A stretch of 64,000 bases of DNA. Source: Fistulifera solaris. Taxonomy: Eukaryota; Bacillariophyta; Bacillariophyceae; Naviculales; Stauroneidaceae. Shown here piece after piece: positions 20,146 to 52,486 of the stretch. Under the pieces are notes generated by a model, which worked only from the letters and a program-made list of their open reading frames with translations, was not told the DNA's origin and did not search any database. The translations under genes and the position numbers were made by a program. Within the stretch, counting starts at the first letter, position 1, and every line of letters begins with the position of its first letter. The DNA is taken from the NCBI GenBank assembly GCA_030295235.1, contig AP026123.1, forward strand, positions 1,922,001-1,986,000. The letters run 5' to 3'.

Positions 20146-21861
20146 TTACTTTCGAGACTTCTTGCGAGCTCGCGACGAGTCCTCCGTCTTTCGTTTCGAA
20201 CGAAGAAGTCGATTCGATCTTCGAGGTGCTCCGTCTTCTTGATCCACACCTTGCACCAGCTCACAAAGCACGTCTGTATGCTGCGACAACAACAATGCCG
20301 TGTACTGGAAGTTGTTCGACGCTCTTTCTGTGAAAGCCTTTGTCACCAGCAATGGACGCAAATCTGTAGCTTCTTTGACAAGGTTTGCCGATCCATTGTA
20401 CACATCATTCAGCGCATAAAGCTGGTCTATGGTCGAGCCGTCCGAGCACCTTTCGCCAAATTCATTCAATACCACTATCTTCCGGTTGCGAGAGAGCAGC
20501 CGCTTCAGCCAAGAACGGTCAAAGTAGTATCGCCTAGAAAACACTCTGTTTTCGTCCTCCGCTCCGTCGCTACCGTCCCTCAGCTTGAAGCTCTGCACAC
20601 GGATTTCACGAAGACTAGGGTGCTCTTCCGCACATTCAAAAATTCCTCGCAAATGGGGACCCCAAAGCAAACACGTACGAGTTTGGTGTAGCTCTAAGCA
20701 TGATAGTCGCTGATTGGCACGAAGGGCAGCAGTCAATGCATCTGCAACCGATGCGACCTCATCAAATAGAAAACGTTCTCGGTTCTGAGATCCGTAGTCA
20801 ACTCCTATACACAATCGCTCAAAATGGCCGAGGACAGCGACGCGATTCAAGAACGAGATGATACGTGTATGCCAAGCAAAGCTCCACTCAAATACAAAGA
20901 TTGGAGTAATATCGATAGCCGGAATATTCAGAGAATCAAAACTTTCTGGATGAACGTCGTTTGCCTGATGTACCCTGTAGTACAGTGTCTTCACCTTGGC
21001 GTTGAATGGAAGCAAGGCACATACCGTATTTCGGATGCTAAGATCGAGAGTCTGAAACACGTATTCAAGTTTCAAAAGCCGTTCCAGATTTGAAATGCTC
21101 AACATGCCCCCATTTGAAGTTTCGGATACGATCAGTTTCCCAAAGGGAGATTTTCTGAGTTCTAGCGCTTCAACAAACGCCGTCCCGCCGTCCAGAAATG
21201 TATGTTCGCCTTTCATCAACAGCAAGTCCAAGGGATAGGGTCTTGTCGCCAGAATCTCCGATTGTTTTGCGCTGAAATCTGCTTCAAGATCGATGCATCT
21301 TGTTGGATTAGAGTCCAGCATTTGAGCCAATTGCTCTGGTAGAAGAGACGAAAGGTCAAGAGAAAGACTGCAATGGTTGCAGCGATGAAATCGAAGTACC
21401 GTCTGCGGAGATGCTTCATGCTTGAGAGACCCGAAAAATGTGATGGTTTCTGCGATAGCGGCCTCTCTTTCACCGTAAACCATGTAGTGCAAATTATAGC
21501 CCTGGACGTTTTCGAGTATGACGAAGACTCTTCGTTTGGCATACGCCTTGTCATAGTCCTTGTAAATGAAGATGAAAGTTCCGTTTTCCCGCCAGATCAC
21601 AATTTCGTCATGAATCCCCCAATCAAACTCGCCGAGAGCGGTTGGTTCATCCAGAAATTTGTAAACTGGCCATGATTCGGAAAAATTGAGCGGTAACAGA
21701 GCCTTTTGTCTCTGTGAGAGCCGATGCCAGGGAATGCGCTGTAGGGTCGGGACTTCGTGCTTCGTGTTCTTTCGTACGTAAACACATGCGGAGAGCACGG
21801 AGACGAATAGAAGATAGCAGCTCAGTTCCGAAGGACTCGTAAGAGCCGAAGAGAGGAGCAT
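20146..21861 (-). CDS. Large protein with N-terminal membrane segment, unknown function
   Basis: A single open frame of 571 residues. The first 30 residues (LTSPSELSCYLLFVSVLSAC) are hydrophobic and may be a signal anchor. The body contains irregular leucine-rich stretches such as LSLDLSSLLPEQLAQML and ISNLERLLKLEYVFQTLDLS, reminiscent of degenerate leucine-rich repeats. The C-terminus is strongly basic (RRSNRLLRSKRKTED, SSRARKKSRK) and could act as a nuclear signal, at odds with a membrane protein unless the N-terminus is not used. I do not recognise a named family; similar unknown proteins with diverged LRRs are common in diatoms. Length and lack of stops support a real gene. Confidence 0.65.
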   Translation of the reverse strand: MLLSSALTSPSELSCYLLFVSVLSACVYVRKNTKHEVPTLQRIPWHRLSQRQKALLPLNFSESWPVYKFLDEPTALGEFDWGIHDEIVIWRENGTFIFIYKDYDKAYAKRRVFVILENVQGYNLHYMVYGEREAAIAETITFFGSLKHEASPQTVLRFHRCNHCSLSLDLSSLLPEQLAQMLDSNPTRCIDLEADFSAKQSEILATRPYPLDLLLMKGEHTFLDGGTAFVEALELRKSPFGKLIVSETSNGGMLSISNLERLLKLEYVFQTLDLSIRNTVCALLPFNAKVKTLYYRVHQANDVHPESFDSLNIPAIDITPIFVFEWSFAWHTRIISFLNRVAVLGHFERLCIGVDYGSQNRERFLFDEVASVADALTAALRANQRLSCLELHQTRTCLLWGPHLRGIFECAEEHPSLREIRVQSFKLRDGSDGAEDENRVFSRRYYFDRSWLKRLLSRNRKIVVLNEFGERCSDGSTIDQLYALNDVYNGSANLVKEATDLRPLLVTKAFTERASNNFQYTALLLSQHTDVLCELVQGVDQEDGAPRRSNRLLRSKRKTEDSSRARKKSRK

Positions 21862-22441
21862 GATAAGCTTTTAGTATGCGGACAAGAGCGTCGTCACGGT
21901 GCGGATCTGTAATGCGTTGCTACGAAAAATAATGAGAGCAGGACGACGACCCGCAGCAAGCCCTTTCGTATTCACGGCATCGCCGCGAGTACTAGATAGG
22001 CGACGTGGACCAACTACAAACGTGAATCAGAAGACATCGCAATGCTACCAGAAAGCATTTGCTCTGCGTTGATGGGCGCGAGCGATTGATCACAGTTCGA
22101 GGACTTCAACATCAGTTTGTTGTTCTGTCGAGGGCGAAAACGTCCGCTGTGATGTTGTTTCGTAAATAAATTCTCCTATAACCGCTCGGAGGTTTTGACT
22201 TTCTAGGTGAGGTGTTAGTAGTAGGTGCTCGGAATAAAGACTTTAACTTGCAAGGAGGACGACTCTCTAGAGTCACTCAAGTGTCTCGTCTCTCTACTGT
22301 ACCTAATATCTAATGGCTCTCATTTTATGTGTTAAAAAGAAAACCCAAAAGAGCAGTCTTAGCATCATCACGCTGTCTACAGCACATCTAATAAAAGAAT
22401 AAGAGCGATTAGATCATCATGCCTATCACATTTGTATCAAT
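21862..22441. other. Intergenic between unknown gene and alpha-tubulin 3' end
   Basis: About 580 bases holding the promoter of the unknown gene and the 3' untranslated region of alpha-tubulin. No feature supported. Confidence 0.5.
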
Positions 22442-24059: not shown

Positions 24060-24465
24060 GATGTTCAAGTAAAGCTACAAAGAAAAAAGCAACGAAAGTA
24101 AAAAGACAATGGAAGCAAACTCTCACGACAAGAATTGCACCAAAGATTTGTGTTGTGTGCCTTTGCGTTGCTGCTGCTGCGGCCTCTCGTCGGAGCCGCT
24201 TCACGCAAATAACGCAGGGAAATTTTTTCGACTTTGCTGTGTCGCAGTTCCTTCCGACTATGGACTACGTAGTATCTCATAGAGTGTACTTGGCGGTGTC
24301 GTGTAGATGCCGTCATGTTCAGGAACCAAATTCACACTCGTGACTCATTGAGAAATCCGCGTGCTTCGGTCTGCTTCGTGCATTTCATTGCAGGTCAAGG
24401 CGCAGTATTTGAACCATTATCAACAAACTATCCATACAAACAAATATAATTTAGCCGGTCGAAGA
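24060..24465. other. Shared divergent promoter region
   Basis: About 400 bases between the alpha-tubulin start (minus) and RPN12 (plus), most likely a bidirectional promoter. Confidence 0.5.
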
Positions 24466-25200
24466 ATGAATTCTATCGGACAACAGCTCGAAAGCTACTT
24501 AGCCAGCGGCAATCAAGAAGAAGCCAAGACGCTGCTCAATCAGGTCAAACTCGCTCTCCTCACGCAGCCTCTCGATGTGAATGAACGAGCGCAAGCAGTG
24601 GCGGCGCTCGAAATCGGTGTATTATTAGCCATTCAAGCGGAAGATCTCGACTTGTTTGGCAGAACGGTGGCTTTGATTCAACCCTACTACTCAAAAGACG
24701 GCCCGACAACGCCGCGACGATTGCTTGTCATCGGATTGCATCTTATGCATCTGCTCGTCGAAAATCGTCTTAGTGAGTTCCATTCACAGCTGGAGCTTTT
24801 GACGGAAGAAGAGGCGGCTACACCGTTTATTAGCTTTCCCGTGGGTCTCGAACGGCAGTTGATGGTGGGAATTTACGATGAAATTTTGGCCGTGACGGCA
24901 CCAGACGCTTCGTATCAAATCTTTCTCGATTTGACGGTACAGACGGTGCGAGATGCCATCGCCGACTGCATGGAAGTCTCGTACGAGTCACTTACGACGA
25001 AACAAGCTGCGGAAATTATGAAATTCGACTCGACACAAGAACTCGTTGATTACGTTCAAGAATCGAGGGACGACTGGATCTTGCAAGGCGACGTCCTGAC
25101 ATTCCAACCCGTAGCGTCTTCCGGAGCACAAGATATTCCTTCTATGGAGTGGATCGAGCAATCGCTCACGTACGCTACAGAAATGGAACGCATTGTTTAA
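24466..25200 (+). CDS. RPN12: 26S proteasome regulatory subunit RPN12 / PSMD8
   Basis: Lid subunit of the 26S proteasome, 244 residues. It shows the helical SAC3/CSN8-like fold: ALEIGVLLAIQAEDLDLFGR, LLVIGLHLMHLLVENRLSEF, and a PCI-like winged helix (MEVSYESLTTKQAAEIMKF, then DWILQGDVLTFQPV). The C-terminal helix SLTYATEMERIV corresponds to the tail that locks the lid in homologues. The start at 24466 is chosen because the family begins with a short leader before the first helix. It is convergent with TPK at 25290. A broken partial copy lies at 31.9 kb. Confidence 0.9.
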   Translation: MNSIGQQLESYLASGNQEEAKTLLNQVKLALLTQPLDVNERAQAVAALEIGVLLAIQAEDLDLFGRTVALIQPYYSKDGPTTPRRLLVIGLHLMHLLVENRLSEFHSQLELLTEEEAATPFISFPVGLERQLMVGIYDEILAVTAPDASYQIFLDLTVQTVRDAIADCMEVSYESLTTKQAAEIMKFDSTQELVDYVQESRDDWILQGDVLTFQPVASSGAQDIPSMEWIEQSLTYATEMERIV

Positions 25201-25289
25201 AAAGTAATTTCTATAGTAACTCATCTTTCTTGGCGTTTTAAGCAAATTGACGCCTGCTGTTCATGAATGCAACAAATGTACATGTGGTT

Positions 25290-26085
25290 TTACTTGTCTG
25301 ATCGGCCACAAAATACTTCGGTTGTAAAAATCACTGGTGATGAAACGGTCACACTCAGCGGGATGCCGTTTGGTTCGTTTATTTCCTGCGCGATGCGATT
25401 CGAGGTCGAGACCATACCGTTGAATGAAGATGGATAGTCGGTCAGATTCCACTCGAAACCAGTTAGCGTCATAGACTCACATGGTGCTCCGAGTGGAATG
25501 ATGCCGCACGTTTGCCCCTCACCAACATGAATTGTAGTGTCTCCTGACAAGGGTGGTAACGCTAACTCGATATGATTTTCAACATGAGCTGGAAGTAGAA
25601 ACGCCATAGTATAATCGTCGTACAGCCAAAGAGATTGCAGCTTCGGTTCCTCTGCCCACTGATACAATCGGCTCATCGAAGCCATGACTTGATCGAACCG
25701 TCCACCAAATGCCCCGAAAACACAGCACTGACTACATTCATAATCATTCACCGCTGCTAAAAGGGCCTTTTCTAAATCATTCTTGTCCTGATCATAAAAT
25801 TTTCGAATGGTCACACCCATCTTCTCGTAATGCTCTCGCGTTTCAGATGTCAAGGAATCCAAATCCCCGACAACCAAATCGGGTGTCCACTGGGGCTGTG
25901 CAGCACGCAAGCGATTGGCTCCTCCATCGGCACAGATGCGTACTTGAGCTGAATTCCATAACTGTGTGAACAAAGGACTCGGCTCGTCGCCGAGGGGGGC
26001 TGTTTAGGATGATGAGGGCTCGTTTGTGCGCCGAAGCAAGTAAAGGACTTTTGTGATAAACAATCGGGCGTTCATTCGTCGACAT
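25290..26085 (-). CDS. TPK1: Thiamine pyrophosphokinase
   Basis: Converts thiamine to thiamine diphosphate with ATP. About 265 residues from the methionine at 26085 (MSTNERPIVYHKSPLL). Catalytic-domain motifs are intact: RICADGGANRLRAAQ, DLVVGDLDSLTSETREHYEK, YDQDKNDLEKAL, and VFGAFGGRFDQVMASMSRL. The C-terminal thiamine-binding region is GEGQTCGIIPLGAP then MTLTGFEWNLTDYPSSF and NGIPLSVTVSSPVIF. The N-terminal 30 residues lie in a different frame and meet the main frame at the G run 25994-25999; one G fewer joins IILNSP to LGDEPSPLF, as in the second copy. It forms a convergent pair with RPN12, and this pair was duplicated to 31.9-33.1 kb. Confidence 0.9.
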
Positions 26086-27595
26086 GATAGTAGCTGTATC
26101 CTTTCTCGAACGAGTGAACGGTTGGGAAGTCAAAGACGAGAACTCGACGTGAGCGGATTCGGATTCTTCTCGAACCCTTTCAAAGCAATGGGTATGAGAG
26201 AACCCACCTGCTATAAGTTTCGAATATCTTCTTGGGATTTTTGCAAGGAAGTAATAACTCTGTTTCTCGATCGAAACAAATGTTTGTCGGCTTTCTTGCG
26301 CAATTGCCCTTTTAATTTTTTGCAAGAAAAAGTTAAACTAATTATTTAATTCCTAATTTTCCTAAAATGCGGATGCATTTTGACACTCAAGTGAATTTTC
26401 CACTGGTTTTTCTCTTTTGTCACATTTCTTTCAGAAAATTCGATTTCTGAATCACTGTACCACAGTATTGCCCTTTTAATTGGTTTGAGATACTATAAGG
26501 CCAAGGCTGCTAGAGAAGTGTCTGCTTTCAACCGTTCTCGATATTCCTGTATGCGCAGTTGCTGTACAAATCTAAGCAGTGCGACATAGATGGACAAAAC
26601 AACTTTCGACAAGGACCATTCACCGTGTAATTATCGCGTTAAATTGGTTGCCCTTTGTTCGTCATGATTGTCATGAAAGCATGTTCTTCTTCCTATTGAG
26701 CACCGGAAGTCTCTTTTATTGTCTTTTGTGAAGCTTAAGTGGTAAGGGGTAAGGAGTCATTTCTTAACAAATAGTAGTCAAGCGAAGATGGGCACTGAAA
26801 CGAAGCCGTCCTTGAAAAGCAACTTAGGCGTGTGGTGACTTTCAAATTAAATTTGATCATTACTCTTACACACGTCGTTTTACAGAAGCTATGACATATT
26901 GAATTGAATGTAAACTTTTTGTCGATTTACAACTGGGTAGAAGCCGAGGCCATGGACTAGCAGGAGGGCATTTTGAGAAAGCCTCGAGACGATGCTTAGA
27001 TATTGCCGTGGGTCCTTATTGGCCAACGATGTTGCTTTAGACGTTTGCACGTCTAGGATTTTGGAAAGAAATCCGAATCGGGGCGCATAATGAGTCGGTA
27101 AGTATTCGACCAGCTCGACGAAACTGAACCGTCGTTCGGGTGGATGCTTCTTTCTCATGGGCATCTTTTTCTCGGTAGATCTTGAGAGCATTGTGTCTAA
27201 TTTGTATTCACTTGTCTTTCTGCTCCTACACTGTAGCATCGCCACCGGAACGTACATGGCTGTGAAATTTATTGCATCTGGTAAACGGAAACACAGAACT
27301 TTGCGAGCAATGAACAAAACCATATTCAAGCTCCTTCCTTAACTATTAGGCACTGTAAAGCGCCGCACACCTTCTCATTCTGAATTCGAGAAAGCTGCAC
27401 TGCTAAAGTAGCGTGTAACAGCTGTCTTCGCCATATTTTCATCGGCAAAGCCGTTTATCGTTTTTATATTTGAGATCAAATGGACGTGAAACTAGATCAT
27501 CGGTGTTACTACTGGACTTATATAAATTTATATAGACAGATGAACGACGCAAAAGTCTATTTAGACAGAGGTACATGATCCTCCGCATCGCGACC
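26086..27595. other. Intergenic, with array spacer block (copy 1)
   Basis: About 1.5 kb between TPK and the first HA gene. The part at about 26570-26810 is repeated, diverged, at 31375-31600 and 36280-36510. A 146-codon minus-strand frame (26889-27329) has no recognisable domain; I cannot decide whether it is coding. Confidence 0.5.
26570..26810 (+). repeat. Array spacer block A, copy 1
   Basis: Diverged direct repeat shared with 31375-31600 and 36280-36510. Landmarks are a GCAGTGCGACA start, a TTTCGACAA segment, ATTCACCGTGTAATTATCGC and a TGTGAAGCTTA segment. It marks the left edge of each HA unit. Confidence 0.65.
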
Positions 27596-29204
27596 TTATA
27601 CAGACGAATCGTCATTCTTGCTGCCGCTGTCCATTTGGTTCGGCGTGACAATTCGCTTCGGTCGCTTTGGCGGGAAATCACATTTCTCGGTATTCGCTGT
27701 TGCACGCGCGAAAGTTCGGTTTATCGTTGCTTTGCCTGCGGCGCGGTCCAAAGCAAGCTTCTTCTTCGAACGACGCCACCTTCGGATTCTTCGCTTTTGC
27801 AGTGCGATTGCTTTCTCTCTTCGAACGCTCCTTTCTATCGATCGCGTTGACGGTTCCATATCTTCGTTTTCTGATCTTGCCCTCTTTTTGCCTTCCATGT
27901 CAACGACAAATGTCTCCAAGTTTACTTCTGGCGTGTCATCCTTTTCACCGTCGTCGCAATGCCCCCAGAAACGACAAAAGTCAATGCCATCCAGTTGTTC
28001 TAGAGATGCGAATCCCTCACCAGAGTGATCAACCTTGCGTTCTTTTACCTCCACTGACGTTACGGTGCTAGCACCAGCATCGAAATTTAAGATGCCCTCA
28101 AAAGTCTCGCTCTCTTGTGCCCAAGAAACTGCTGATTCCGTCTCCGCGCTTCCTTTTGATGCTACACCTTTGAATAAACCTTTTCTGGATGGTGAACATA
28201 CTTCCGTACGAGCTCGAAGTGGATTTAGCAACCGCACGGATTTGTCTTCCGCAAGTTGACGTTGGTCCATGAGAGACGGCTGGTCAACAAACCGCTGGCT
28301 ATTAGTCTTTCCTCTCCGGGGTGTGCCCGTTTGGTCAAAACTGCCTTTACCCTCCGAAATTAATTCGTTGTTCGTGTTGCGCTCCTTTTCAGCGATTGTG
28401 GAGCTTCGTGTTTTCATTTTGCAAGCTGATTCGGACGATGATAGAGAATTCGTAGCATGGCGTTTTTGCGCGCAGCAGACTGTGTAGACCATACAAAACC
28501 TATTTCATTCAGTTGCTCCTCTCTGTCGGCTCTCATCTTGTTCTGTCTCTTCACTTGTCGTTGTCGCCTCATCCAATCGTACAGGTCTTTGTCTTTCGAT
28601 TGTTTGACATCCATGTGCCCATTTTCCAATTTGTAGGTAACAAGTCGCTGGTAATATTCATCCCAATCGTCGCGAACATCCCAGACAAATCCTATCTGAT
28701 CCATCAGCTCCTTCCTGTTGCTCAACAATTTTCCATTTCTCTTCTTATATCGTTGTTTGGTGATCCATTCGCACAACTCGTTATCGTCGTTAGCCGTGAC
28801 CATCGTGTGCCCCTGAGCCTTTCTGAAAACAAGGAGCCGCTGGTACATGTGGTTCCAAGCCTTATCGTATTTGCTTTCTTTTTGGTAATATTACGAGTAT
28901 TGGCGATTGGTGAACACCAGTCGAAGGATAAATCATTCAAAAGAGCTTCGCGATCTCGGCGCAGGTTGCCGGCACGTTGAGAGGATTGTTGCGTGGTAAC
29001 CCAAGTGTGCAATGACTCGTGGACGTCAACATTGGGGACATTACAATGCCCGTTCGCCTTGTGAAACACAGTAAGCTTTTTGTACATCTTCATCCAAATT
29101 TTGTCGTCACGAGACGTCGTTTCGTGCCGAACTTCAAGCACATCACCATTGTTCTCAGGTGCTGCAAACGACGATTCATCCGAAGTATAGTCTAGTAAAT
29201 CCAT
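27596..29204 (-). CDS. HA-repeat protein 1
   Basis: First of three tandem paralogues. It starts at 29204 with MDLLDYTSDESSFAAPENNG, nearly identical to the third copy. Three helicase-associated (HA, PF03457-like) repeats follow, each with the pattern W-x-x-x-Y-x-x-L-x-x-F-x-x-x-x-G-H and ending in G-F-x-W: MYKKLTVFHKANGHCNVP, MYQRLLVFRKAQGHTMV, YYQRLVTYKLENGHMDV. The C-terminal half is Ser/Lys/Glu-rich and keeps a degenerate form of the Tudor-like segment seen in copy 3 (FCRFWGHCDDGEKDD). The frame changes at two T runs, 28879-28883 and 28463-28467 (A runs in the coding strand), so it may be a pseudogene or, like other genes here, carry sequence errors. HA repeats occur beside helicases and are thought to bind nucleic acid; function here is unknown. 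Confidence 0.65.
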
Positions 29205-30025
29205 TTTGAAGCTGATAAACAAGAAAGAATTGATTGTGCAAGGCGTTGTAACGCATGTTGCGGAAGAACGCCGCTGCAGCGGGCGGCTTGCCGCTTGTTC
29301 CCGCTCATCGCATGGACATCGACTGATTTTCTCTCGCACTACTTTCAACGTGAGAGTACAAGTACCGGATGCACATTTTCTCGGTCATCGCATTAGAACG
29401 CTTCGCCGACGTCATCAATCTAAGGTCGCAATAAGTCGCGAATATCATATTACCACATCACGGCATCCCAATGGGGAAAAATCAAACTCTCAGAATCCGT
29501 TAGGAAGGAGATGAACCCAATTGTACTTGCAGCAGCTTCGTATAGCAAGTTCTCAAATTTCCGTCCTACTGTCTCGGATAACGCGTGGCATGACTTTACA
29601 ATCTTCTTAAGCGCGCTCTCGTGAAGTAGACCTAGCGGATAATAAAAGGAGAACAAGAAACTCTCGTTTGCTCACATGATTCATTTCGTTGTCGTTCTTT
29701 ATCCGTAGATGCGTCTGTCTTTCCTCCCTGATTTGGTTATTCTGAAGACAAGTTTGCTTTAAACGCTTGCGAGGTTCGCATTATGACAAGTAGAACTGCT
29801 CGAATGCGATTGGCTTATGAAATCATCGGCGACTTTTCTTTGCCGAGGTTTGGAACTGAAATTTAGTTGAGTGCTCGACGTCGTTCATTACAGACCCTTC
29901 AACTTATCAGAAACAAATACTCCGGAGTATCAGGTTAACCGATCGACTCATCACACGGATCTTGCACTGATGAATGCGCCACAGTAGATTAAGTGGTTAT
30001 CAGATTTTATTCAATACCTTCAGTG
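29205..30025. other. HA1 upstream region and spacer
   Basis: Contains the HA upstream block (about 29220-29470, conserved in HA2 and HA3), with GCGGCTTGCCGCTTGTTCCC near 29282. No gene seen. A palindrome ATACTCCGGAGTAT lies near 29918. Confidence 0.55.
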
Positions 30026-30415
30026 TCATAGGTATCTTAGGGCGCTCCAAATATTGTGATTCTGCACGTTTGCCCCTCTGTCATACGCTTTGTAGAGGTA
30101 GACAATTCGCTTCAATTTCGCGACATGAGATGGAAGTGGAAAAGACTTGACCCATCGTCGTACAGCCATGCGATTCGTAGAGGTACTGCTAATTCGCTTC
30201 GATTTTGCGACATGAGCTGGAAGTGGAAAAGCCTTGGCCCATCGTCGTACAGCCATAAAAACTGCAACTTCGGTTCCTCCGCCCAATGTTACGACCGGCT
30301 CGTCCATGCCATAACTTGATCTAGCCGTCCTCCGCATGCTCAGAAAATCTGCACTCAATAAACATTCTTGTTCTGATCGTATAATCGTCAAATAATGGTC
30401 ACACCATCGTCTCAT
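30026..30415 (-). pseudogene. TPK gene fragment 1
   Basis: Degraded piece of the thiamine pyrophosphokinase gene on the minus strand. Reading from 30415 downward it matches the central part of TPK: remnants of EHYE, then the segment equivalent to QVMASMSRLYQWAEEPKLQS, then FPLPAHVAKSKR matching LLPAHVENHIE. Several frame changes and stops are needed to follow the parent, and the catalytic motifs upstream are absent. A segment of about 84 bases is tandemly repeated inside (about 30104-30187 and 30188-30260), giving VRRWAKAFPLPAHVAK and VRRWVKSFPLPSHVAK. Not a functional gene. Confidence 0.75.
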
Positions 30416-31374
30416 AATGCTCGAGTACCATCAGCACTTTGTATAGCATCTTATTTCCGCCCCACTCGGAGAAAGCTTCAAACAATTCTAAGTCTTCTAG
30501 ACAGGATCTTTTGAATTGGCGAAATTGCATTTGAAAACAGGACAATTTGCGGGTGCAACTCGTTTTCTCCTCCTTTAAAGCTTACGCGATTCCTCCTTGG
30601 TTGATTGCCAGAAAGTAGAAAATGTTCGTAACGCTGCCAGCAATCGCGCACTCGATACAGCTACCGCATTGATACCTGGCAGATTGACGAACGTCTCTAA
30701 CCATCAAATTAGATTTTACAACCGAATGAGAAACAGTTGTCGTTTCATTGTTTACCCTCAAATAGAAGCATCACCCTTCTTGCTTCTCCCACCAAACCAG
30801 CTCTCGGCTCTCGTATTGACGAACTGACCGCAGCAGGGTATAGCATAAAAAAATAAGCAGCACCAAGGGTTCCATTTCAACAGCAAGTCTTGAACCGGAC
30901 ACTCAAATCTGGTGAGACAAAGTGAACCATATAGCAACAATCTAGTAAACCAGAAACCCTCTTTTGGTTCCGATAAATGAACGACAGCGCTCTCAATAAA
31001 ACTTGAACGCCGATCTTAAACTATGAACCGGATGCCGTGTGCTTACCAGCTAGATCGAACGAAGTGTCGGTCATGATCGCCGACTGATCCAACATCACCG
31101 ATGATGCAACACCGTGCGATCTTCCATAGAGCTATAACGAACACACTTGGGCAAGGTTCAATAATGCTGGTGTTTACGAACGCATCTCCAAAAGTGTGAT
31201 CGATAACAAACGCTAACAACCTCATCAAATTAATCTGCGTTCGCCATCGGTCCACCATCTCTTTTTTCGTTTATTGGAACGTTGTCGCGCTCGCCGAGGA
31301 TCCGGCTTTTCGGGGGGATTGAATCATGACCATTAGGGACCGACATATAGTAGCTTCATTACTGTACTCAGCCT
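30416..31374. repeat. Array spacer block B, copy 1
   Basis: About 0.95 kb of non-coding sequence that recurs diverged at about 35.2-36.25 kb and 39.25-40.25 kb. Shared landmarks are the GGTTGATTG segment, TTGAACCGGACA, GATAA-TGA-GA followed by GCTCTCA, and CATCACCGATG near the end. No gene is supported in it. Confidence 0.6.
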
Positions 31375-31600
31375 TGGGCAGTGCGACGTTCTTCAACGAA
31401 AACAAGGTTTCGACAAAAACACTTTCGCGACAAAATGGTCGCTTTTTGCTCGTTAACATTGTTATACATAGTATGTCTTCTTTTTACCGAGCACGGCAAG
31501 GCTCTTTGATTGTCTATTGTGAAGCTTATATGGTGATGGCGAAGGGGAAAAGCACATCTTTGTAATTTGATTTACAAACCAAGATCGGCACTATAACGAA
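31375..31600 (+). repeat. Array spacer block A, copy 2
   Basis: Second copy of the direct repeat described at 26570. It lies just left of the duplicated RPN12/TPK segment. Confidence 0.65.
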
Positions 31601-31877: not shown

Positions 31878-32200
31878 TCAAAGACGTCCCATAACGCTGC
31901 CGCGATTTCTCGTCATCGATTGCATCTGATGCATGTGCTCGCCAATTATTTTTGTAGTCACAACGAGTCATTTACGCGAAACCGGCTGCGAGAACTATAA
32001 AGCTGATTCAATACAAGAACTGACTAAAGGAGATTACAGGTACTGGCCGAGGAATGACTGGATCTTGCAGGGCGACGTCCTGACATGTAAACCATGGCGC
32101 CTCCTAGGAGACACGGCATTCCTTCTATGGAGCGGACCGACCGTTTTGCTCACATCTTGCTACAGCAATAGAGCATATTGTGTCAATGTAAGAAAACTAA
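31878..32200 (+). pseudogene. RPN12 partial pseudogene
   Basis: Degraded copy of RPN12. The left part matches parent bases from about 24700 (RRLLVIGLHLMHLLVEN). It then jumps across a deletion of roughly 200 bases to the part encoding SYESLTTKQAA, and continues through DSIQELTKGD and NDWILQGDVLTC to a piece matching IPSMEWIEQSLTYAT. Frame changes and a stop near the original LLVEN site show that it is not translated as RPN12. Like the parent it is followed, convergently, by a TPK copy, so both came in one segmental duplication. Confidence 0.85.
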
Positions 32201-32287
32201 AATATATACGGGGTAAATTATCTTTCTTGGCGATTCAAGCCTCTAGACATGCCCTTCTCGTAAATGCAACACGTATACACATGCTGG

Positions 32288-34526
32288 CTACTCTTCTGAT
32301 TTGCCACAAAAGACTTCCGCTTTGAAAATCACAGGTGAAGAAACGGTCACACTGAGTGGGATCCCGTTCGGAACGTTTACTTCTTGTGCGATTCGATTCG
32401 AAAATGGAACGATATGATGAAGCGAAAAAGAAGAGTAGGTCGGGTTCCGTTCAAAACCAGTTAGTGTCATGGATTCACACGGTGCTCCGAGTGGTATGAT
32501 GCCGCACGTTTGCCCCTCACCAACATGTTTCGAAGAGTCTCCTGACAATGGCGGTAACGCTAATTCAATACGATTCTCAACATGAGCTGGAACTAGAAAT
32601 GCCATGGTGGAGTTGTCGTATAGCCAAAGCGATTGCAGTTTCGGTTCCTCTGCCCAATGATACAACCGGCTCATCGAAGCCATGACTTGATCAAACCCGC
32701 CACTTAATGCCCCGAATACACAGCACTGACTGCAGTCATAATCATACACCGCTGCCAGAAGGGCCATTTCTACATCATCCTTGCTGCTCCGAACAACAAC
32801 CTCTTGAATAGCCACACCCAATGTCTTGTAATGTTCTCGTGTTTTGGATGTCAACGAACGCAAATCACTGACAATCACGTCGGGCTTCCAAAGCGGATGA
32901 GCAACACGCATCCGATTGGCTCCACCACCGACACAGATGCGAACCCGAGCCGAGTTCCACAAACGTTCGAACAAAGGGCTCGATTCGTCACCGAGGCCGA
33001 GGGGACTGTCATGGATGACGAGAGCTCGTTTGTTGTCTGAGTCAAGAAGGGGACTTCTATGAACAACAAATGGGCGTTCGTCCTGTGCCACCATTTTCAG
33101 ACGATCATGACGAAGGAACATTTGACGCTTGATGGGAAGCAACAAACCCGATTTCCTTTCCTGGTCCAGGAAAGATGACTGATCCTTCCCCATTGCTTGA
33201 CTATCTTCTTCCGTGTGCTTGACTTGGTTGGTGTGCTCGACTTGGTCCGGTGAAACATTTCGCGTGGACTGCTTTGGCGGTGTATTACTCTCTTCGGTCA
33301 TCGCTTTTGCACGCGAAGAAGATCGATTTGCTTGAGTCTCCACGCGATCGTTGGACACATTCTTCTGCGATTTTGCAGTCGACTCTACAACCGGTACCAC
33401 GTTCGATTTCTGCTCTTGTGCAGTTGGATTCGCTTCACTGCTGTCAAGCGCTTGTTTCTTCACTCGATTGGTCGACAACGAATCTTCTTTCGTTGCACGC
33501 TTTCGCTTGTTTGAAGTCTCGCTCTCTTGTTTCTCGATAATTGGCGACTCCGCCTCAAGGCTTCCTGTTGACTCTTCGTCTGACGCTGATCGCTTAGTGG
33601 ACCGCGCATGGGCTGTTGCATCCATTTCGATTAGATCAGGCAACGGCTTGGATTTGTCCTTCGGGCGCTCACGACGTTCAATGACGTTTTGGACCTCCAA
33701 AGGCTCGCTATCGTGCTTGTCAGAGATTACCGACTCGGTCTCGGCGCTTCCTGTTGATTCTTCTTCTGAGACCGAACCCTTCCCGGATCGCGAAACATCT
33801 GAAGTATCCTCTGCAGGTGCATCTTTAAATCGCGCCACTTTGTCTTGCGCGAGTTCACGGCGTTCCGAAAGAGAGCTCTGTTCGACTTTGCTCTTGGCAC
33901 TTCGTGTTTTGGTCTTGCGAGCTGGTTCAGATGATGAAAGAGACTCCGTATCTTTGGACTTTGAGGGCTCCACAGACTTGACAACCCACACAAACCCTAT
34001 TGCTTTCAATCGCTCCTCTCTTTTGGCTTTCAATGTCTTTTTCTTTCTTCTGTTGTCGTTGCTTTTTGATCCAATTGTAGAGCTTCTTGTATTCTTCGAC
34101 GTTAGCCGGAACCATCATGTGCTTATTTTCCTTGATGAAGGCAACGAGTTCATTATACATTATCTTCCAACGCTTGTCGTTATGGGTTTCTTCTTCGCCA
34201 CCACTAGGCTCGTCATTGGGCTTCGCGCTTGGCTTGGTGCTAGGTTTACTCCAATTCGAATCCAGCTCATTCAATAGGGTTTCACGATTGCGGGGTAGCT
34301 TGCCCGCAATTTGCAACGCTTGTTGTTGACTGGTCATCCACCAGAAAAGCAGTTCGTGTTCATCAACGTTGGGGATATGACCGTGCGCTTTGTGAAAAGC
34401 TTGGAGTTCTTGAAACTTCTCCATCCAAAGTTCGTCGTCGTGGGTCATTTCCTTTCGATTTTCCAACACATCTCCTTCGCTCTCAAGAGACACAGACGAT
34501 GCTTTTTTGTTTGATTTGCCACTCAT
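32288..34526 (-). CDS. HA-repeat protein 2 fused to a TPK-like domain without catalytic motifs
   Basis: A long gene starting at 34526 (MSGKSNKKASSVSLESEGDV). The N-terminus has two HA repeats (WMEKFQELQAFHKAHGHIPN and MYNELVAFIKENKHMMVPAN, the second ending EERLKAIGFVW). A linker of about 280 residues, rich in Ser, Glu and Lys, leads without a stop into a complete TPK-like domain (ERPFVVHRSPLLDSDNKRAL to IFKAEVFCGKSEE). The parental TPK start methionine survives in MVAQDERPF, so the old 5' region became linker. Motifs needed for catalysis differ from the parent: ICADGGAN is ICVGGGAN, VVGDLDS is VVSDLRS, YDQDKND is VRSSKDD, and FGGRFDQ is LSGGFDQ. The thiamine-side C-terminus is well kept. One frame change lies at the T run 34038-34042 near the HA repeats. 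Confidence 0.7.
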
Positions 34527-34913
34527 TCTGTATTATCGATACCAGGTAATCGAAAATGAATTCAGTTTCGTTTGTGAGATGATTGTGCGTTGTGAGCCAT
34601 GCTGCGGAAGGATGGCGCTGCAGCGGCGGCTTGTTGCTTATTCCCGCTCCGGTCATGCATGCAATTGCAACGGTCATCCCCGATTGCGTTCGTGGCACCG
34701 TACTTCGAAGAATAGAGTGTGGGTACCGGATAAAGATTCTTTCAGTCGTGTCACGCTTTGTATTTCTCACCATCATTAATCTAAGGTTCCAAAACATCCA
34801 GTTATAACGACGCGGCATCCCCATTGAAAGAAACATGCTCCCGTTTGTTATCAGCAATCAAGTCAGAGAGAATTTGAACTAATTCGTACTTTCAACAAGT
34901 CTGCGTAGCAATA
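34527..34913. other. HA2 upstream block
   Basis: Upstream region of HA2, conserved with those of HA1 and HA3 (GCAGCGGCGGCTTGTTGC near 34619, TCAT-AATCTAAGGTT near 34775). No gene. Confidence 0.55.
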
Positions 34914-35243
34914 TTATCCGTCTTTTCGTTTTACCACGTGCTGCGCTTCGTAGAGTCTCCCAAAATTGAAGGTTTTGCTAACTCGTTTCAAAATTGCGAC
35001 ATGAGCTGGAAGTGGAAAAGCCATGGTAAATCGTCGTTCAGCAAAACGAAATGCAGCTTCGGTTCCTCCGCCCATAATACGAACTGCTCGTCGATGCCAT
35101 AACTTGATTGTGCCGTTCACCGAATGCTCAATAAATACATTATTGATTGACGCCACTACCAGCAGGGTCATTTCTAAACCATTGATCGTAAAACAATCAG
35201 TTGTCACACCCATCGTCTCGTAATGCTCGAGTACCCGCAACAA
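34914..35243 (-). pseudogene. TPK gene fragment 2
   Basis: A 109-codon minus-strand stretch clearly derived from TPK. EHYETMGVTTDCF matches EHYEKMGVTIRKF, LEMTLLVVASIN matches LEKALLAAVND, and TMAFPLPAHVAILKR matches TMAFLLPAHVENHIE. The catalytic GGRFDQ region is replaced by unrelated residues and both ends of the enzyme are missing. A dead fragment lying in the spacer of the array, at the equivalent place to fragment 1. Confidence 0.8.
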
Positions 35244-36279
35244 ATTCGTATAGCAGTATTATTTCTTCTTTCCGGTACACTCGGAGAACGCGTAATGCGA
35301 TTCTCTAAATATCTTTGGCACGATATTGTAAATTGACGAAATGTTCAATGAGAACACGACAATTAAATTTGCGGGTGCAACTCATTCCCCCTCAGTTCAT
35401 GTTTATGCCATTCCTCCTCGGTTGATTGTTAGAGAGTACGTTCGCACCAATCGCACAAGTCGGTACAGCTTTGATACCTGGTAGGTTGACGAATGCTTGT
35501 TGCCCTTCAGTAAGATATGACAACCAAGTGAGGAATATTTGTCGTTCCATTATTTACCCTCGAGTACAACCAACAGCCTTTTCACTTCTCCCATCAAACC
35601 AGCTCTTGGCTCTTGTATTGACGAATTGACCACAGCAGGGTGTAGCATACCAGGTAAAAATGAGCAGCGCCAAGTTGTTCCATTTAACAGAGTTCTTGAA
35701 ACTTGAACCGGACAATCGAATCTGATGCGACGAAGTGGACCATATCGCAAAGTATTGAATCAAAAGCCCTATTCTGGATCCGATAAATGAAGAGACAATG
35801 CTCTCAGAAAGTATTCGACCATGAATATCGAACGTGAAATATGCGTTAGCTGCGATATCGGGCATAAGGATTCCGTGTGATTGCATTTGCATGAAAGGAG
35901 TTACCACGATCGCCGATTGCCCCAACACCACCGATGCTGCAACAATGTACGATTTTCCCCTATAGTGTTTTTAATATTGTGGCGAGGATCTGCGAACGTA
36001 TCTGCACAATATGCCAATGATGGACGATCACAACATTATCCAAACCAAATAACTGCGTTCGCGGCCATCTCCCCATCGTCATCGTATTCTTTATTCTTTG
36101 TCGGCTTTTTCGGCATGGATGCAGTTCTACCATGATCTGTGGTTAGAGCATTACTGGCTTACCGGTATCCGAAGTAGTTGTGAGCATAAATTTTTGAGAA
36201 CCGAAAAGATATTCCCCGCTTCTGGAACGGATGACGTGTTGTTGCTTTATTTTGCTTTGCGCATCAAGGCCTTGATCCT
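35244..36279. repeat. Array spacer block B, copy 2
   Basis: Diverged copy of the spacer at 30416-31374 and of that near 39.25-40.27 kb. Copies 2 and 3 are closest to each other: both contain AAATATGCGTTAGCTGCGAT and GAACGGATGACGTGTTG. No gene supported. Confidence 0.65.
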
Positions 36280-36510
36280 TGAGCAGTGCGACATCCATCA
36301 ACGAAACGAGATGTTTCGACAAAAAGCATTCACCGTGTAATTATCGCCACAAAATGGTCGTCTTTTGCTAGTCAACATTGTAATTAACAGTATAACTTCT
36401 TTCAATTCAGCATGGCAAGGCTCTTTTCTAGTATATCGTGAAGCTTATAAGGTGAAGGCTGAAGAGGGGTCATATCTTATATTTTGAAATAGACAAGGGA
36501 AGCTTGGCAC
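36280..36510 (+). repeat. Array spacer block A, copy 3
   Basis: Third copy of the direct repeat described at 26570, with GCAGTGCGACATCCATCAAC at the left and the TGAAGCTTATAAGGTGAAGG segment near the right. Confidence 0.65.
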
Positions 36511-36948
36511 TTTGGCGAACGGTGGTGGGGCTTGGTTCGATACGGTGACGGTCGATCTTGGTGGCGATCCGCGCCGTAGATGGGAATCTTGTGAGCGTGG
36601 TTCCAGGTCAGCCATTCGGATGTCTCGGGGGCAGCCAGTCTGAATCGGATTCTAGTGGCTTATATCGCGAGAGTACGACCTTACAACGTGGATAGGACTT
36701 ATAATAAAATTTAAAAGTTTTTTATCTACAACCTTTCCAAAAAAACAATTTTTCGTTGTTGATTCTGATATTTTATCATATGTGGTGAGTCAAAGAAGAG
36801 CGATTGGCAACTTATGGTTTGCTGTAATTGCCAAATGACGGTCCACAATCTTGCGTGAAAAAACTTGCTCTACTTCCACCATACTGAGAGGAGTCGATGC
36901 TGATTTCATCAGGCAAGGGATCGAATCTCGGAATCGGTAAGTGCACGC
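36511..36948. other. Spacer right of block A copy 3
   Basis: About 440 bases with a GC-richer stretch at 36530-36660, without recognisable gene. Confidence 0.45.
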
Positions 36949-38898
36949 CTACCCCTTGAATCTGAGCTGGAACGCCCGTGATAGATTTGTACACATGATC
37001 AAATGTTGAGTTTCTTTTTTGCTGCATCCACAAATTTCAAATGCAGGAGCCTCATCTGGACGGTTTTGTGGGCCTTCCCAGCAAGAAATGAGCGAACCAA
37101 TAGGACAACTTTTATGCGGAAAACTTGCCGCCCAATGGCGACCTGTCGACTGTGCCGCGGACGTGATTGTTGACTCAAAATCGACCATGCGCTCACCCTC
37201 CTGGTCTTCCTCACCGCAACTCTTTTCCTGTGGCTCGACTTCAGTTCCACCTTTGCGGAGAAAGGGCTTACGCGTTACGTTTTCCCATAATTCTGGGTCA
37301 TTTTCCTTGTCTTCGTGAGACTTAGTATCGATCCGCGCCACGTAACCTACTTCAATCATGTGCTCAACTTGACTATCATTCTCGGACTTGCCCGGTGTGA
37401 CTTTTTGCATTGATCGTTTCGGCACTTTACTATCTTCTTTGGTCTTTGCTTTTGCACGCGTAAAAAACCGCGTTTTCATTGCTTTACTTTCGACGCAGTC
37501 GGTAACGACTCTCTTCTTTGATTGAACACTCGACACTACTACCGAGTCCACTGTAGCAGCCTTTGTTTCTGTATCTGTGCTCTTACACTTCGTTTTTTTC
37601 GATAGTTTTGTCGGCGTTGAGTCATCTCTCGTCGGTTTCGCCCTTTTTTTGCGTTCCGCTTTGACCAAGAATCTCGTCACGTCTGCTTCAACCAAATGCT
37701 CTTTATCGCCGTCGTCGTATTGAATTAGATATCCCCAGAAACGACGACCATCATCATCCTCAAATTGCTCATATGATTCGATTGCTCCGCCAAAAAGCTG
37801 AAATTTGCCTTTTTCTACCTCGAATGGCTTTTCGATCCGAGTACCAACAGCTAAGTTTTGTACTTCCAAAGTCTCGCTTTCTTGTGGCCAAGTAATCACT
37901 GATTCCCTTTCGGTGCTTCCTGTTGGTAAAGATGACTCTTGAGACCAGACGAATCCAATTTCATACAATTTCTCCTCTCTGTCGCTCGACAACTTTCCCT
38001 TTTTCTGCAAAGATCGCTGTTTGCTAATCCACGTGTACCACTTTTTGTCATCGCTAGCGTTGACATTCAAATGTCCATTCTTTTCTTTAAAGGCAACAAG
38101 TCGTTGATATTTTTCATCCCAAGCTTCATCGGGTGTGAGCTTAACAGCCCAGGCAAATCCTATCTCATTCAATCGCTCCTCTCTGTCGCTTGACAATTTC
38201 CCCTTTTTCTGCAAAGATCGCTGTTTGCTAATCCACTTGTACCACTTTTTGTCATCGCTAGCTTTGACATTCAAATGTCCATTCTTTTCTTTAAAGGCAA
38301 CAAGTCGTTGATATTTTTCATCCCAAACTTCATCGGGTGTGAGCTTAACAGCCCAAGTAAATCCTATCTCATTCAATCGCTCCTCTCTGTCGCTTGACAA
38401 CTTTCTCTTTTTCTGCGATAATCGTTGTTCGCCAATCCACTTGTACAGTTCTTTGTCATCGTCAGCCGTAACATTCATGTCTCCGCGCGTAATTTTGAAG
38501 GCCACGAGTCGCTTGAACACTACATCCCAAGCATCAACGTCTGTACTTTGCACTTCGGTGCTGGGTCTGTCGACAGCCTTGACATCTGGTTTGGCGCTAG
38601 GCGTACTCCATTTAAACCCCAATTCGGTCAAAAGTTCTTCGTGATCCTGGCGCAGGTTGCCCGCGCGATGGATGGATCGTTGAGTAGCAACCCACGAGAG
38701 TAACGGTTTGTGATGTTCGTCGTTCGGGACTTTGCAATCGCCTTGCACATCGTGAACTGCTTTGAGTTGTCGGTACTTCTCCATCCAGATTCTATCCTCC
38801 GGTGTTGTTGTTTGATTACGACTTTCGAGCACATCCCCTTCGTTCTCAGGTGCTGCGAACGACGATTCGTCTGAAGTGTAATCTTCTAGTAAATCCAT
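36949..38898 (-). CDS. HA-repeat protein 3 with Tudor-like segment
   Basis: The intact member of the array, 649 residues from the start at 38898 (MDLLEDYTSDESSFAAPENE). Four HA repeats follow: WMEKYRQLKAVHDVQGDCKV, FKRLVAFKITRGDMNV, and two nearly identical units beginning DEKYQRLVAFKEKNGHLNV, each ending in G-F-x-W. The last two result from a 204-base tandem duplication. A segment resembling a Tudor/chromo-type strand follows (VEKGKFQLFGGAIESYEQF, then RRFWGYLIQYDDGDKEHLVE), then a basic, Ser/Thr-rich tail. I infer a nuclear, nucleic acid- or chromatin-associated protein. The last 80 residues (from about ITSAAQSTGRHWAASF) have no counterpart in the other copies. Confidence 0.75.
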   Translation of the reverse strand: MDLLEDYTSDESSFAAPENEGDVLESRNQTTTPEDRIWMEKYRQLKAVHDVQGDCKVPNDEHHKPLLSWVATQRSIHRAGNLRQDHEELLTELGFKWSTPSAKPDVKAVDRPSTEVQSTDVDAWDVVFKRLVAFKITRGDMNVTADDDKELYKWIGEQRLSQKKRKLSSDREERLNEIGFTWAVKLTPDEVWDEKYQRLVAFKEKNGHLNVKASDDKKWYKWISKQRSLQKKGKLSSDREERLNEIGFAWAVKLTPDEAWDEKYQRLVAFKEKNGHLNVNASDDKKWYTWISKQRSLQKKGKLSSDREEKLYEIGFVWSQESSLPTGSTERESVITWPQESETLEVQNLAVGTRIEKPFEVEKGKFQLFGGAIESYEQFEDDDGRRFWGYLIQYDDGDKEHLVEADVTRFLVKAERKKRAKPTRDDSTPTKLSKKTKCKSTDTETKAATVDSVVVSSVQSKKRVVTDCVESKAMKTRFFTRAKAKTKEDSKVPKRSMQKVTPGKSENDSQVEHMIEVGYVARIDTKSHEDKENDPELWENVTRKPFLRKGGTEVEPQEKSCGEEDQEGERMVDFESTITSAAQSTGRHWAASFPHKSCPIGSLISCWEGPQNRPDEAPAFEICGCSKKETQHLIMCTNLSRAFQLRFKG

Positions 38899-40270
38899 TT
38901 TGTGAATTTGATAATCGAGAACGAAGTTGGTTTCCTTTGTAGAACTGATTGTGCAATTGCATTGCAATGCGATTTGCGGAAAAATGGCGCAGCAGCCCTG
39001 CAGCCGGCGGCTTGCTGTTTGTTCCCGCTCACGACATTGAACCACGACTGACTGTGTCGCGCCGTATTATAAATGCGATAGTACAAGTACCGGATGCACA
39101 CGTTGCGGTACGCTTCGTCGCCGTCATCAATCTAAGGTTTCGAATTATCAACATGTTCTCACCTCATGGCGTCCCGATGGACCAAACCACGGTCTCCTTT
39201 TTCAAAATCCAATCAAGTCAGGAAGAAGATGGCCCATATCTACTTTCAGCAATTTCGTATAGCAATAATATTTCTTCTTTCCGACCTAGTCGACTCGGAG
39301 AACGGGAAGGTTGCGTTACCATCTTTTTGAGCGAGTCTCTTAAATAGTGGATGCTCGTGCCGCGATTCTAGTTTCTTTCTCCCCTCCGTCAATGGCTATG
39401 TAACTTCTCCTTGGTTGATTGCTGGTTGAAACTTCGATTTCTTAACGTTGGCGGCAATCGCGTATGTCAACTAAATTTGGTTGAATGCAATACAAGCATA
39501 CCACGCCCATACCTCCTAGATCAACGAATGCATGTTTCCCACGTATACGATTTCACAACCGAATGAGAAACAGATGTCGTTTTATCACATACCAGGTACC
39601 CTTCGAAATGAGAACTCTTTTCGCTTTCCCAATTAAATTGGCTTTTGGATCCCGTTTTGATGAATCAAAGACAGAAGAACACAGTAATTCGATAAAGCAG
39701 CGCCAAGTTGTTCCATTTCAACAGCAATTCTTGAACCGGACAATGGAAACTGGCGTGACAAAGTAGTGGATCAGAAGTCTGGATCCGATAATGAGGAGAC
39801 AATGCTCTCAAAAAGAATTTGACCATGAATCCCAAACTTAAAATATGCGTTAGCTGCGATATAGCGCAAACGGATGCCGTGTGCTTGCATTTGCACGAAA
39901 GAAATTACGATAATTGCCGATTGCCCCAATATCACCGATGCTGCAACAACGTACGATCTTCCATAGTGCTACAACGAACCAGTTGTGGCGAGGATCAGTG
40001 ATGCTAGTGATTACGAACGTATCTGTACAATATACCGATGTTGATCGATCACAACATCATCAAATGCAAATACTTTAACTGCGTTATCACCCATCCGCCC
40101 ATCTCGCTGTGTATCGTCGGCCTTCGCTTCGGTGCGTTGTGCAATTCTATTGTGTTCTGTGGTTAAAAGTTTTACTGGCTTACCGGTACCCATAGTAGTT
40201 TTGAATAGAAGATTTGAACACCGAAAAGATATCCCCTTCTTCTTGAACGGATGACGTGTTGACGTTATTG
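38899..40270. repeat. HA3 upstream block and spacer block B, copy 3
   Basis: Upstream block conserved with HA1 and HA2 (GGCGGCTTGCTGTTTGTTCC near 39004, GTACCGGATGCACA near 39085, TCATCAATCTAAGG near 39124), followed by spacer block B. Unlike copies 1 and 2 it holds no TPK fragment. Homology to copy 2 ends near the GAACGGATGACGTGTTGA segment at about 40246, which I take as the right border of the array. Confidence 0.6.
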
Positions 40271-45813: not shown

Positions 45814-46146
45814 GAGCTTTTGAAACCGCAGCTTCAGACGCTTGGCATTGTCTGCATCGCGTTTGAGCTGAGCTGTCTTGCCAGCAAGGCGAAGTGCCGC
45901 GTAAACAACTAGGTTTGTTTTTTGTCGTCTATTCACTCGTTCTTTCTCTCGGCGATGTAGCGGCTCTTCAATTTATCGGGCTAGACACAATTGTTCTCTT
46001 ATTAAATACATACATGGATCCTTGAATCCTGCAGGACGACACGATTCAAGTAAGTACTAGCGGAAGAATCGTTAGACGAGCCACCTTTCGAGCTTGAACT
46101 TGTGAACCTAAATTTGGGAATCTCGAATCTCGACAGTACCTTAACA
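45814..46146. other. Intergenic region left of LTR element
   Basis: About 330 bases, no gene supported. Ends with AACA, which is repeated directly after the 3' LTR. Confidence 0.5.
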
Positions 46147-46475
46147 TGAATCAATCCAGATGTGTTAGGGACAGGGATGGATCGGTAGTGCCACGTCACC
46201 GTGCATTTATGCCTTAAGGTTACATCGGTTCCACCTTGACATTATCCCTTCTATTCGGTCACGGATGCATAAGCTATGCATAACACTTGGAAGTGAGTGA
46301 CCTAATGGGTGATCTAGCGGTTAAGCTAGATCATGAAAGCGTGAACAGAGACGTCGAGCAGGAATTGGAGATGCAGGAGCATTCCATCATTTCGACTAGT
46401 TTAGAGCTCACAGTTTTGAGCCCGGTAAAATAGATGCTCATTACGGCTTGTAATCAGTACTTCTAGACTTATTCA
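46147..46475 (+). repeat. 5' LTR of copia element
   Basis: 329-base long terminal repeat, from TGAATCAATCC to the end CTTATTCA. The only difference I see from the 3' LTR is a two-base length difference near GAGCCCGG. Confidence 0.9.
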
Positions 46476-52017: not shown

Positions 52018-52348
52018 TGAATCAATCCAGATGTGTTAGGGACAGGGATGGATCGGTAGTGCCACGTCACCGTGCATTTATGCCTTAAGGTTACATCGGT
52101 TCCACCTTGACATTATCCCTTCTATTCGGTCACGGATGCATAAGCTATGCATAACACTTGGAAGTGAGTGACCTAATGGGTGATCTAGCGGTTAAGCTAG
52201 ATCATGAAAGCGTGAACAGAGACGTCGAGCAGGAATTGGAGATGCAGGAGCATTCCATCATTTCGACTAGTTTAGAGCTCACAGTTTTGAGCGCCCGGTA
52301 AAATAGATGCTCATTACGGCTTGTAATCAGTACTTCTAGACTTATTCA
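52018..52348 (+). repeat. 3' LTR of copia element
   Basis: 331-base long terminal repeat matching the 5' copy. It ends about 140 bases upstream of the glyoxalase start codon, so the element may supply or disturb that gene's promoter. Confidence 0.9.
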
Positions 52349-52486
52349 AACAAACGGTCCGCGCGATGGGTCGTCAGTCGTCCGCATTAGTCTTTAGTGC
52401 GCATCATCGCGCCTTTTTTGAGAGAAAGATCACTTGATTTCGTTTCGACATCGAGAAAGGTCGCACAAAACGAAAACGAACGAATC

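Follow-up and report, generated by a model that had tools for sequence, protein, structure and literature searches.

The locus studied here raises the question of whether a thiamin pyrophosphokinase (TPK) domain that has lost its catalytic motifs is still maintained as a protein and, if so, whether helicase-associated (HA) repeats belong to it. The first-pass annotation had taken the span 34526-32288 to be a single open reading frame (ORF), a new chimeric gene running from HA repeats through a linker into the TPK domain. We analysed the window, that is, the whole stretch of 64,000 nucleotides at positions 1922001-1986000 of contig C3 (genome of 51.7 Mb, 61 contigs), together with the corresponding region of contig C4. 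On balance we favour, as a whole, the proposal of a duplicated, catalytically dead TPK-fold protein under relaxed purifying selection. The pseudo-TPK appears to be real and is fairly well supported, while the HA chimera finds no support in the DNA as given. The elements concerned are the following.

32288..34114, minus strand: 608-aa stop-to-stop ORF with the HA-gene tail (linker) and the TPK-like domain in one frame (ORF and Pfam TPK domains)
32291..33079, minus strand: TPK-like part, catalytically dead, from ERP to the last codon (Pfam, codon and residue comparison)
33080..34022, minus strand: linker, the charged HA-gene tail (same-frame homology to the tail of the HA gene at 38898-36952)
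33927..34532, minus strand: HA-repeat frame with two HA matches (34436-34260 and 34178-34023), in another frame than the TPK part (Pfam)
34038..34042, minus strand: A-run at which a one-base shift separates the HA frame from that of linker and TPK (frame comparison)

The span read as one ORF holds two frames. What stands of the "one long frame" is its linker-TPK portion, continuous from 34114 to 32288; what does not is its HA portion, the repeats being one base off in the frame 34532-33927. Both TPK domains of the C3 copy score above the curated Pfam cut-offs, which places it in the TPK family (TPK_catalytic, PF04263: 63 bits, cut-off 30.7, E 3.1e-17; TPK_B1_binding, PF04265: 26.1 bits, cut-off 22, E 6.9e-06). 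This is the two-domain family of animal TPK1 (PDB 9HJC, 3S4Y, 1IG3); the match to animal TPK structures covers residues 13-234 of 267, and identity to the neighbouring TPK is 73% over the aligned part. The linker matches the HA-gene tail by tblastn (34108-33077). Four motifs depart from those of the neighbouring TPK, exactly as had been noted earlier: VGGGAN for ADGGAN, SDLRS for GDLDS, RSSKDD for DQDKND and SGGFDQ for GGRFDQ.

An origin by segmental duplication from the neighbouring TPK gene had been proposed, and the alignment bears it out. Positions 24983-26073 pair with 31963-33079 at 75.7% DNA identity (1126 aligned positions), and the duplicated segment extends into the 3' end of the next gene, a member of the CSN8/PSMD8/EIF3K family.

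24352..25200, plus strand: CSN8/PSMD8/EIF3K-family gene adjoining the source TPK (ORF and family match)
25290..26073, minus strand: source TPK gene (ORF list); the C3 frame is broken by one base at the C-run 25994, and the C4 homoeologue reads through
31990..32094, plus strand: relic of the CSN8/PSMD8/EIF3K-family gene, 3' part, copied with the TPK (60% identity, E 1.5e-5)

The TPK-like ORF is an old duplicate of this source TPK gene (26073-25290). Genome-wide, four TPK loci exceed the Pfam cut-off, a source gene and a copy on each of C3 and C4, and only the two copies carry an HA-gene tail in front, the source genes being without it. The copy sits in an array that comprises three HA genes along with TPK fragments and spacer repeats common to its units; the array includes the following.

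27617..29204, minus strand: third HA gene in the array, with its sequence divided among three frames (homology)
30001..30348, minus strand: decayed TPK fragment with stops (sequence match)
34949..35148, minus strand: decayed TPK fragment in two frames, with stops (sequence match)
36952..38898, minus strand: HA gene, open frame of 649 aa with four HA matches, its tail of the same family as the linker (Pfam, homology)

One set of spacer repeats common to array units is at 26575-26796, 31372-31547 and 36277-36511, and a second at 30712-31230, 35663-36241 and 39549-40261; we take these shared repeats as a sign of repeated duplication of the HA/TPK unit. Within the HA repeats of the open HA gene is a tandem repeat (37945-38461; 204-base unit, 2.5 copies, 91% matches), which we interpret as repeat expansion inside that gene.

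Contig C4 keeps the gene order of the window over most of its length, at about 85-90% DNA identity in long aligned blocks, which indicates that the region exists in two homoeologous forms, C3 and C4. Homoeologous contigs would fit an allodiploid such as Fistulifera solaris, described in passages of PMC5935921 (see also PMC13276009). The C4 counterpart of the copy is a TPK-like ORF of 378 codons (locus L006, 5082-3946) with the motifs AGGGAN, SDLES, QSSKDA and NGRFDQ. The junction between tail and TPK is common to the C3 ORF 34114-32288 and this C4 ORF, and in both homoeologues the HA-gene tail and the TPK share one frame, on C4 over the last ~84 tail codons only. Because both copies have them, we place the duplication, the fusion to the HA-gene tail and the loss of the catalytic motifs before the C3/C4 split. 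The gene is not new, the junction, the catalytic loss and the open TPK frame being already common to both homoeologues. Before the homoeologous contigs split, an old segmental duplication would have carried the TPK gene, with its neighbour's 3' end, into the HA-gene array, where the copy would have become fused in frame to the C-terminal tail of one HA gene. On C4, the HA-gene tail also occurs twice in tandem, in one 318-aa ORF (L006 4917-5873, minus strand) upstream of the TPK-like ORF.

Are the HA repeats part of the same protein? In the true genome, the HA repeats, the linker and the pseudo-TPK could form one protein, the break being an assembly error and the HA repeats bringing the dead TPK domain to nucleic acid. 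The likeness to HA-repeat proteins (PF03457; 146 matches in the genome at E 0.001 or better, 141 above the cut-off) consists of the linker, an HA-gene tail, and of two HA matches in the upstream frame, both above the cut-off on C3. The second HA repeat is split over two frames at the A-run 34038-34042, past which it resumes directly in the other frame. No residues are missing there, and an intron across the break is not favoured. A tail in frame with the TPK in both homoeologues would also agree with a single protein.

Many conserved genes on C3 and C4 are, moreover, interrupted by one-base breaks, and an assembly error may therefore explain the one in the HA part. Single-base differences between the contigs disrupt well-conserved genes at, among other places, 23630 (a tubulin gene, presumably alpha-tubulin by its features) and at 25994 (the source TPK). 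Others interrupt frames that are whole as C4 ORFs, of 773 aa (break at 58370) and of 460 aa (6824 and 7114), and at 57481 the C4 side is the broken one. In the C3-C4 alignments of at least 2 kb, 25 coding stretches picked by hand contain 56 indels, some of them at stretch edges or in non-coding sequence, and 42 of the 56 are not multiples of three. This pattern suggests residual assembly errors, and real mutations may contribute too.

Against a single HA-TPK protein, the sequence as assembled contains the break: the frame of linker and TPK opens no further upstream than 34114, and the HA repeats are not in one frame with the TPK part. The C4 HA part is damaged, with its first repeat deleted and a TGA in its second, and the C4 tail carries one TAA and two frame breaks, the last ~84 codons ahead of the TPK part; an HA part that is whole but for a one-base break is seen on C3 only. 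The linker is nearly unconstrained: differences between C3 and C4 by codon position are 10, 11, 18 in one of its two pieces (omega, or dN/dS, 0.41) and 19, 20, 22 in the other (omega 0.69), as against 44, 32, 70 over 256 codons of the TPK part. We regard the joint protein as doubtful. The proposed fusion to nucleic-acid-binding repeats is, as the DNA stands, out of frame on C3 and degraded on C4, unless an assembly error has intervened. The frame that had been read by eye through the HA repeat crossed a one-base break, and claims about frames in this genome need care.

The active site can be judged against Candida TPK, from which we take residue numbers and roles. According to passages of PMC2515308, Mg is bound there by the aspartates D78, D113, D115 and D142, with Lys145 also in the site, thiamine is contacted by an aromatic residue at 285, Ser299 and Asn302, and the active sites draw residues from two subunits. 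Five replacements, encoded by identical codons, are common to both copies: D78 is Gly, the Gly before D113 is Ser, Q138 is Ser, position 139 is Ser and K145 is Met. D115 is Arg in the C3 copy and Glu in the C4 copy. Among the four Mg-binding aspartates and Lys145, the C3 copy therefore keeps D113 and D142, and the C4 copy, with Ala at position 142, D113 only. On the thiamine side, the stacking aromatic (W) is Arg in the C3 copy and Ser in the C4 copy, S299 is Pro and Leu, position 300 is Phe and Ile, and N302 is intact in C3 and Lys in C4, so that neither copy retains the full set of thiamine contacts. The copy is thus unlike TPK in D78, D115, K145, Q138 and the stacking aromatic, all replaced, and in the HA-gene tail that precedes it. 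The thiamine-side C-terminus had been called well kept; its identity is indeed high, but the stacking aromatic and the first two STSN positions have been replaced.

Because the catalytic-side changes are shared and the thiamine-side changes differ, we place the loss of catalytic residues mainly before the C3/C4 split, and that of the thiamine contacts after it, separately in each copy. For the same reason, thiamine sensing, which the first-pass annotation had entertained, is disfavoured for the protein of today, the stacking aromatic and positions 299 and 300 being replaced in both copies. We also considered whether the C4 source TPK is itself dead on account of its motif DQNMND, and dropped the idea: the changes fall at 139 and 140, while D142 and K145 are intact.

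Is this catalytically dead sequence nevertheless maintained? Comparing the two copies over 256 codons by the NG86 method gives a dN/dS of 0.321; for the pair of source genes, over 259 codons, it is 0.088. A codon model with branch classes, fitted to four sequences (source and copy on each of C3 and C4), gave omega values of 0.111 for the source tips, 0.428 for the TPK-like tips and 0.313 for the internal branch. For the TPK-like tips omega = 1 was rejected (2dlnL 19.96), and tying the copies to the source genes worsened the fit by 2dlnL 15.5, the copies being less constrained than their source. None of 200 simulations under omega = 1 gave a value of 0.43 or below, the lowest being 0.61. Taken singly, the C3 copy has an omega of 0.355 (2dlnL 11.8), and the C4 copy one of 0.531 (2dlnL 3.46), which is not clearly below 1. 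When the copies are analysed region by region, omega is 0.375 in codons 0-99 (2dlnL 10.84) and 0.30 in codons 99-198, omega = 1 being rejected in each alone; in the last 67 codons (198-265) omega is 0.70, not different from 1. The codon-position bias between the C4 copy and the C4 source was not significant in the N half (p = 0.17).

Indels point the same way. The TPK part has 3 in 771 aligned bases (6, 6 and 15 bases), all multiples of three, compared with 20 in 803 bases of the 3' flank, 16 of which are not. As controls, in the long C3-C4 aligned blocks 12,097 bases outside the listed ORFs hold 336 indels (27.8 per kb), 278 of them with lengths not divisible by three, and 26,075 bases inside the ORFs hold 70 (2.7 per kb), 51 of them not divisible by three. 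The two other TPK fragments of the array, for their part, have acquired stops. The open frame itself is weaker evidence, because in about 10% of runs, for the C3 and the C4 copy alike, 73 randomly placed substitutions introduce no stop into the ORF; it is omega and the indels that carry the case. The first-pass annotation had held that dN/dS near 1 with stops in other strains would mark a passive relic. With the C4 homoeologue used instead of strains, omega for the two copies was 0.43 and the TPK part, still open as had been described, was without stop in either copy. The idea of lost catalytic residues with continued coding constraint has thus held up, with indels in threes and no simulated omega as low. 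With catalytic residues lost and the protein sequence still under purifying selection, the copies have the sequence marks of a retained pseudoenzyme, under relaxed constraint and, when the copies are taken apart, clearly for C3 only.

A passive relic, that is, a slowly decaying pseudogene without product whose low omega is a leftover of earlier function or due to chance, would accord with the decay of the sister TPK fragments, with the HA part degraded on C4 and broken by one base on C3, with the separate loss of thiamine contacts in each copy, with the omega of 0.70 at the C-end and with the C4 copy not being clearly below 1. It fits poorly with the rejection of omega = 1 for the copies jointly, for C3 alone and for codons 0-99 and 99-198, though catalysis was lost before the split, and with 0 frame-changing indels in the 771 bases against the 16 of the 3' flank. 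We consider it unlikely, with some weight left to it. Gene conversion by the functional TPK, rather than selection, could also have lowered omega, and there are identical runs of 52 nt (C3 copy and C4 source) and 38 nt (C4 copy and C4 source), with third-position differences unevenly spread. The low omega nevertheless survives in codons 0-99 alone and when codons 99-231 are dropped (omega 0.456, 2dlnL 8.49), and copy and source have a high dS (0.43-0.78) in each half; some tracts may have been converted, and conversion as the cause is very improbable. Continued enzymatic activity with a changed chemistry is hardly credible for the copy: D113 is intact in both copies and D142 in the C3 copy, but D78, D115, K145, Q138 and the thiamine-stacking aromatic are replaced in both.

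A maintained pseudo-TPK remains the reading we prefer. Its computed basis comprises the duplication, the shared junction, the loss of catalytic residues, the open frame and an omega below 1. The TPK copy would have lost the Mg/ATP side of its active site first, its C-terminal half staying constrained, and after the C3/C4 split each homoeologous copy would have lost its thiamine contacts on its own. On the internal branch, omega is 0.646 in the N half and 0.067 in the C half, as if the catalytic half had changed and the thiamine half had been held; because this branch also includes source-gene evolution, we only infer this two-step story. The low C-half value would leave room for an earlier thiamine-sensor stage. 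At present the TPK-like sequence, chiefly its N-terminal two thirds, would be held by relaxed purifying selection, more clearly in the C3 copy, and its putative product, a non-catalytic TPK-like protein, is probably kept.

We infer that this non-catalytic protein is produced and that it works by means of its retained TPK fold. The likeliest route would be the TPK dimer surface, with the protein pairing either with itself or with the genuine TPK. Since two subunits contribute to each TPK active site, a mixed dimer with the genuine TPK would be inactive or altered, and such pairing could reduce or change the enzyme's activity; a role as dimer partner is a tentative suggestion. Whether the putative protein would have HA repeats attached to it turns on one base. 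A fuller scenario, in which catalysis was lost at a thiamine-binding stage with the thiamine-binding half strongly constrained, the contacts were later lost separately in each subgenome with the fold retained, and an HA-borne, nucleic-acid-bound TPK partner arose in one of them, seems improbable. An AlphaFold model from two window sequences had a mean pLDDT of 37, too low to be informative. If the protein is made, it would be a candidate regulator of how a diatom activates vitamin B1, and an example of an enzyme turned non-catalytic module whose losses can be put in order by comparing two homoeologues of a single genome.

A known pseudoenzyme of a vitamin pathway is PDX1.2 of the vitamin B6 route, whose partners and effects are known. 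Like PDX1.2, the TPK copy is a duplicate of a vitamin-pathway enzyme that has lost catalysis and been kept. That a TPK label need not mean TPK function is also suggested by the mycobacterial protein SteA (Rv1697), annotated as a thiamin pyrophosphokinase and studied, according to a passage of PMC12977500, as a homodimer in cell-wall hydrolase regulation, although this is a bacterial protein. Among the listed titles and abstract openings on TPK and HA domains, we found no HA-TPK fusion and no diatom pseudo-TPK.

Elsewhere in the window, a 574-aa ORF on the minus strand (20146-21870) has no match in the compared C4 stretch and no Pfam match at 0.01. About 6 kb of C3 (~46090-52352) are likewise without match in the compared C4 stretch, and the ORFs there, judged by eye, look like Copia-type retrotransposon proteins. 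The silicon-transporter family has 23 matches in the genome, pieces being counted apart, as fits a diatom.
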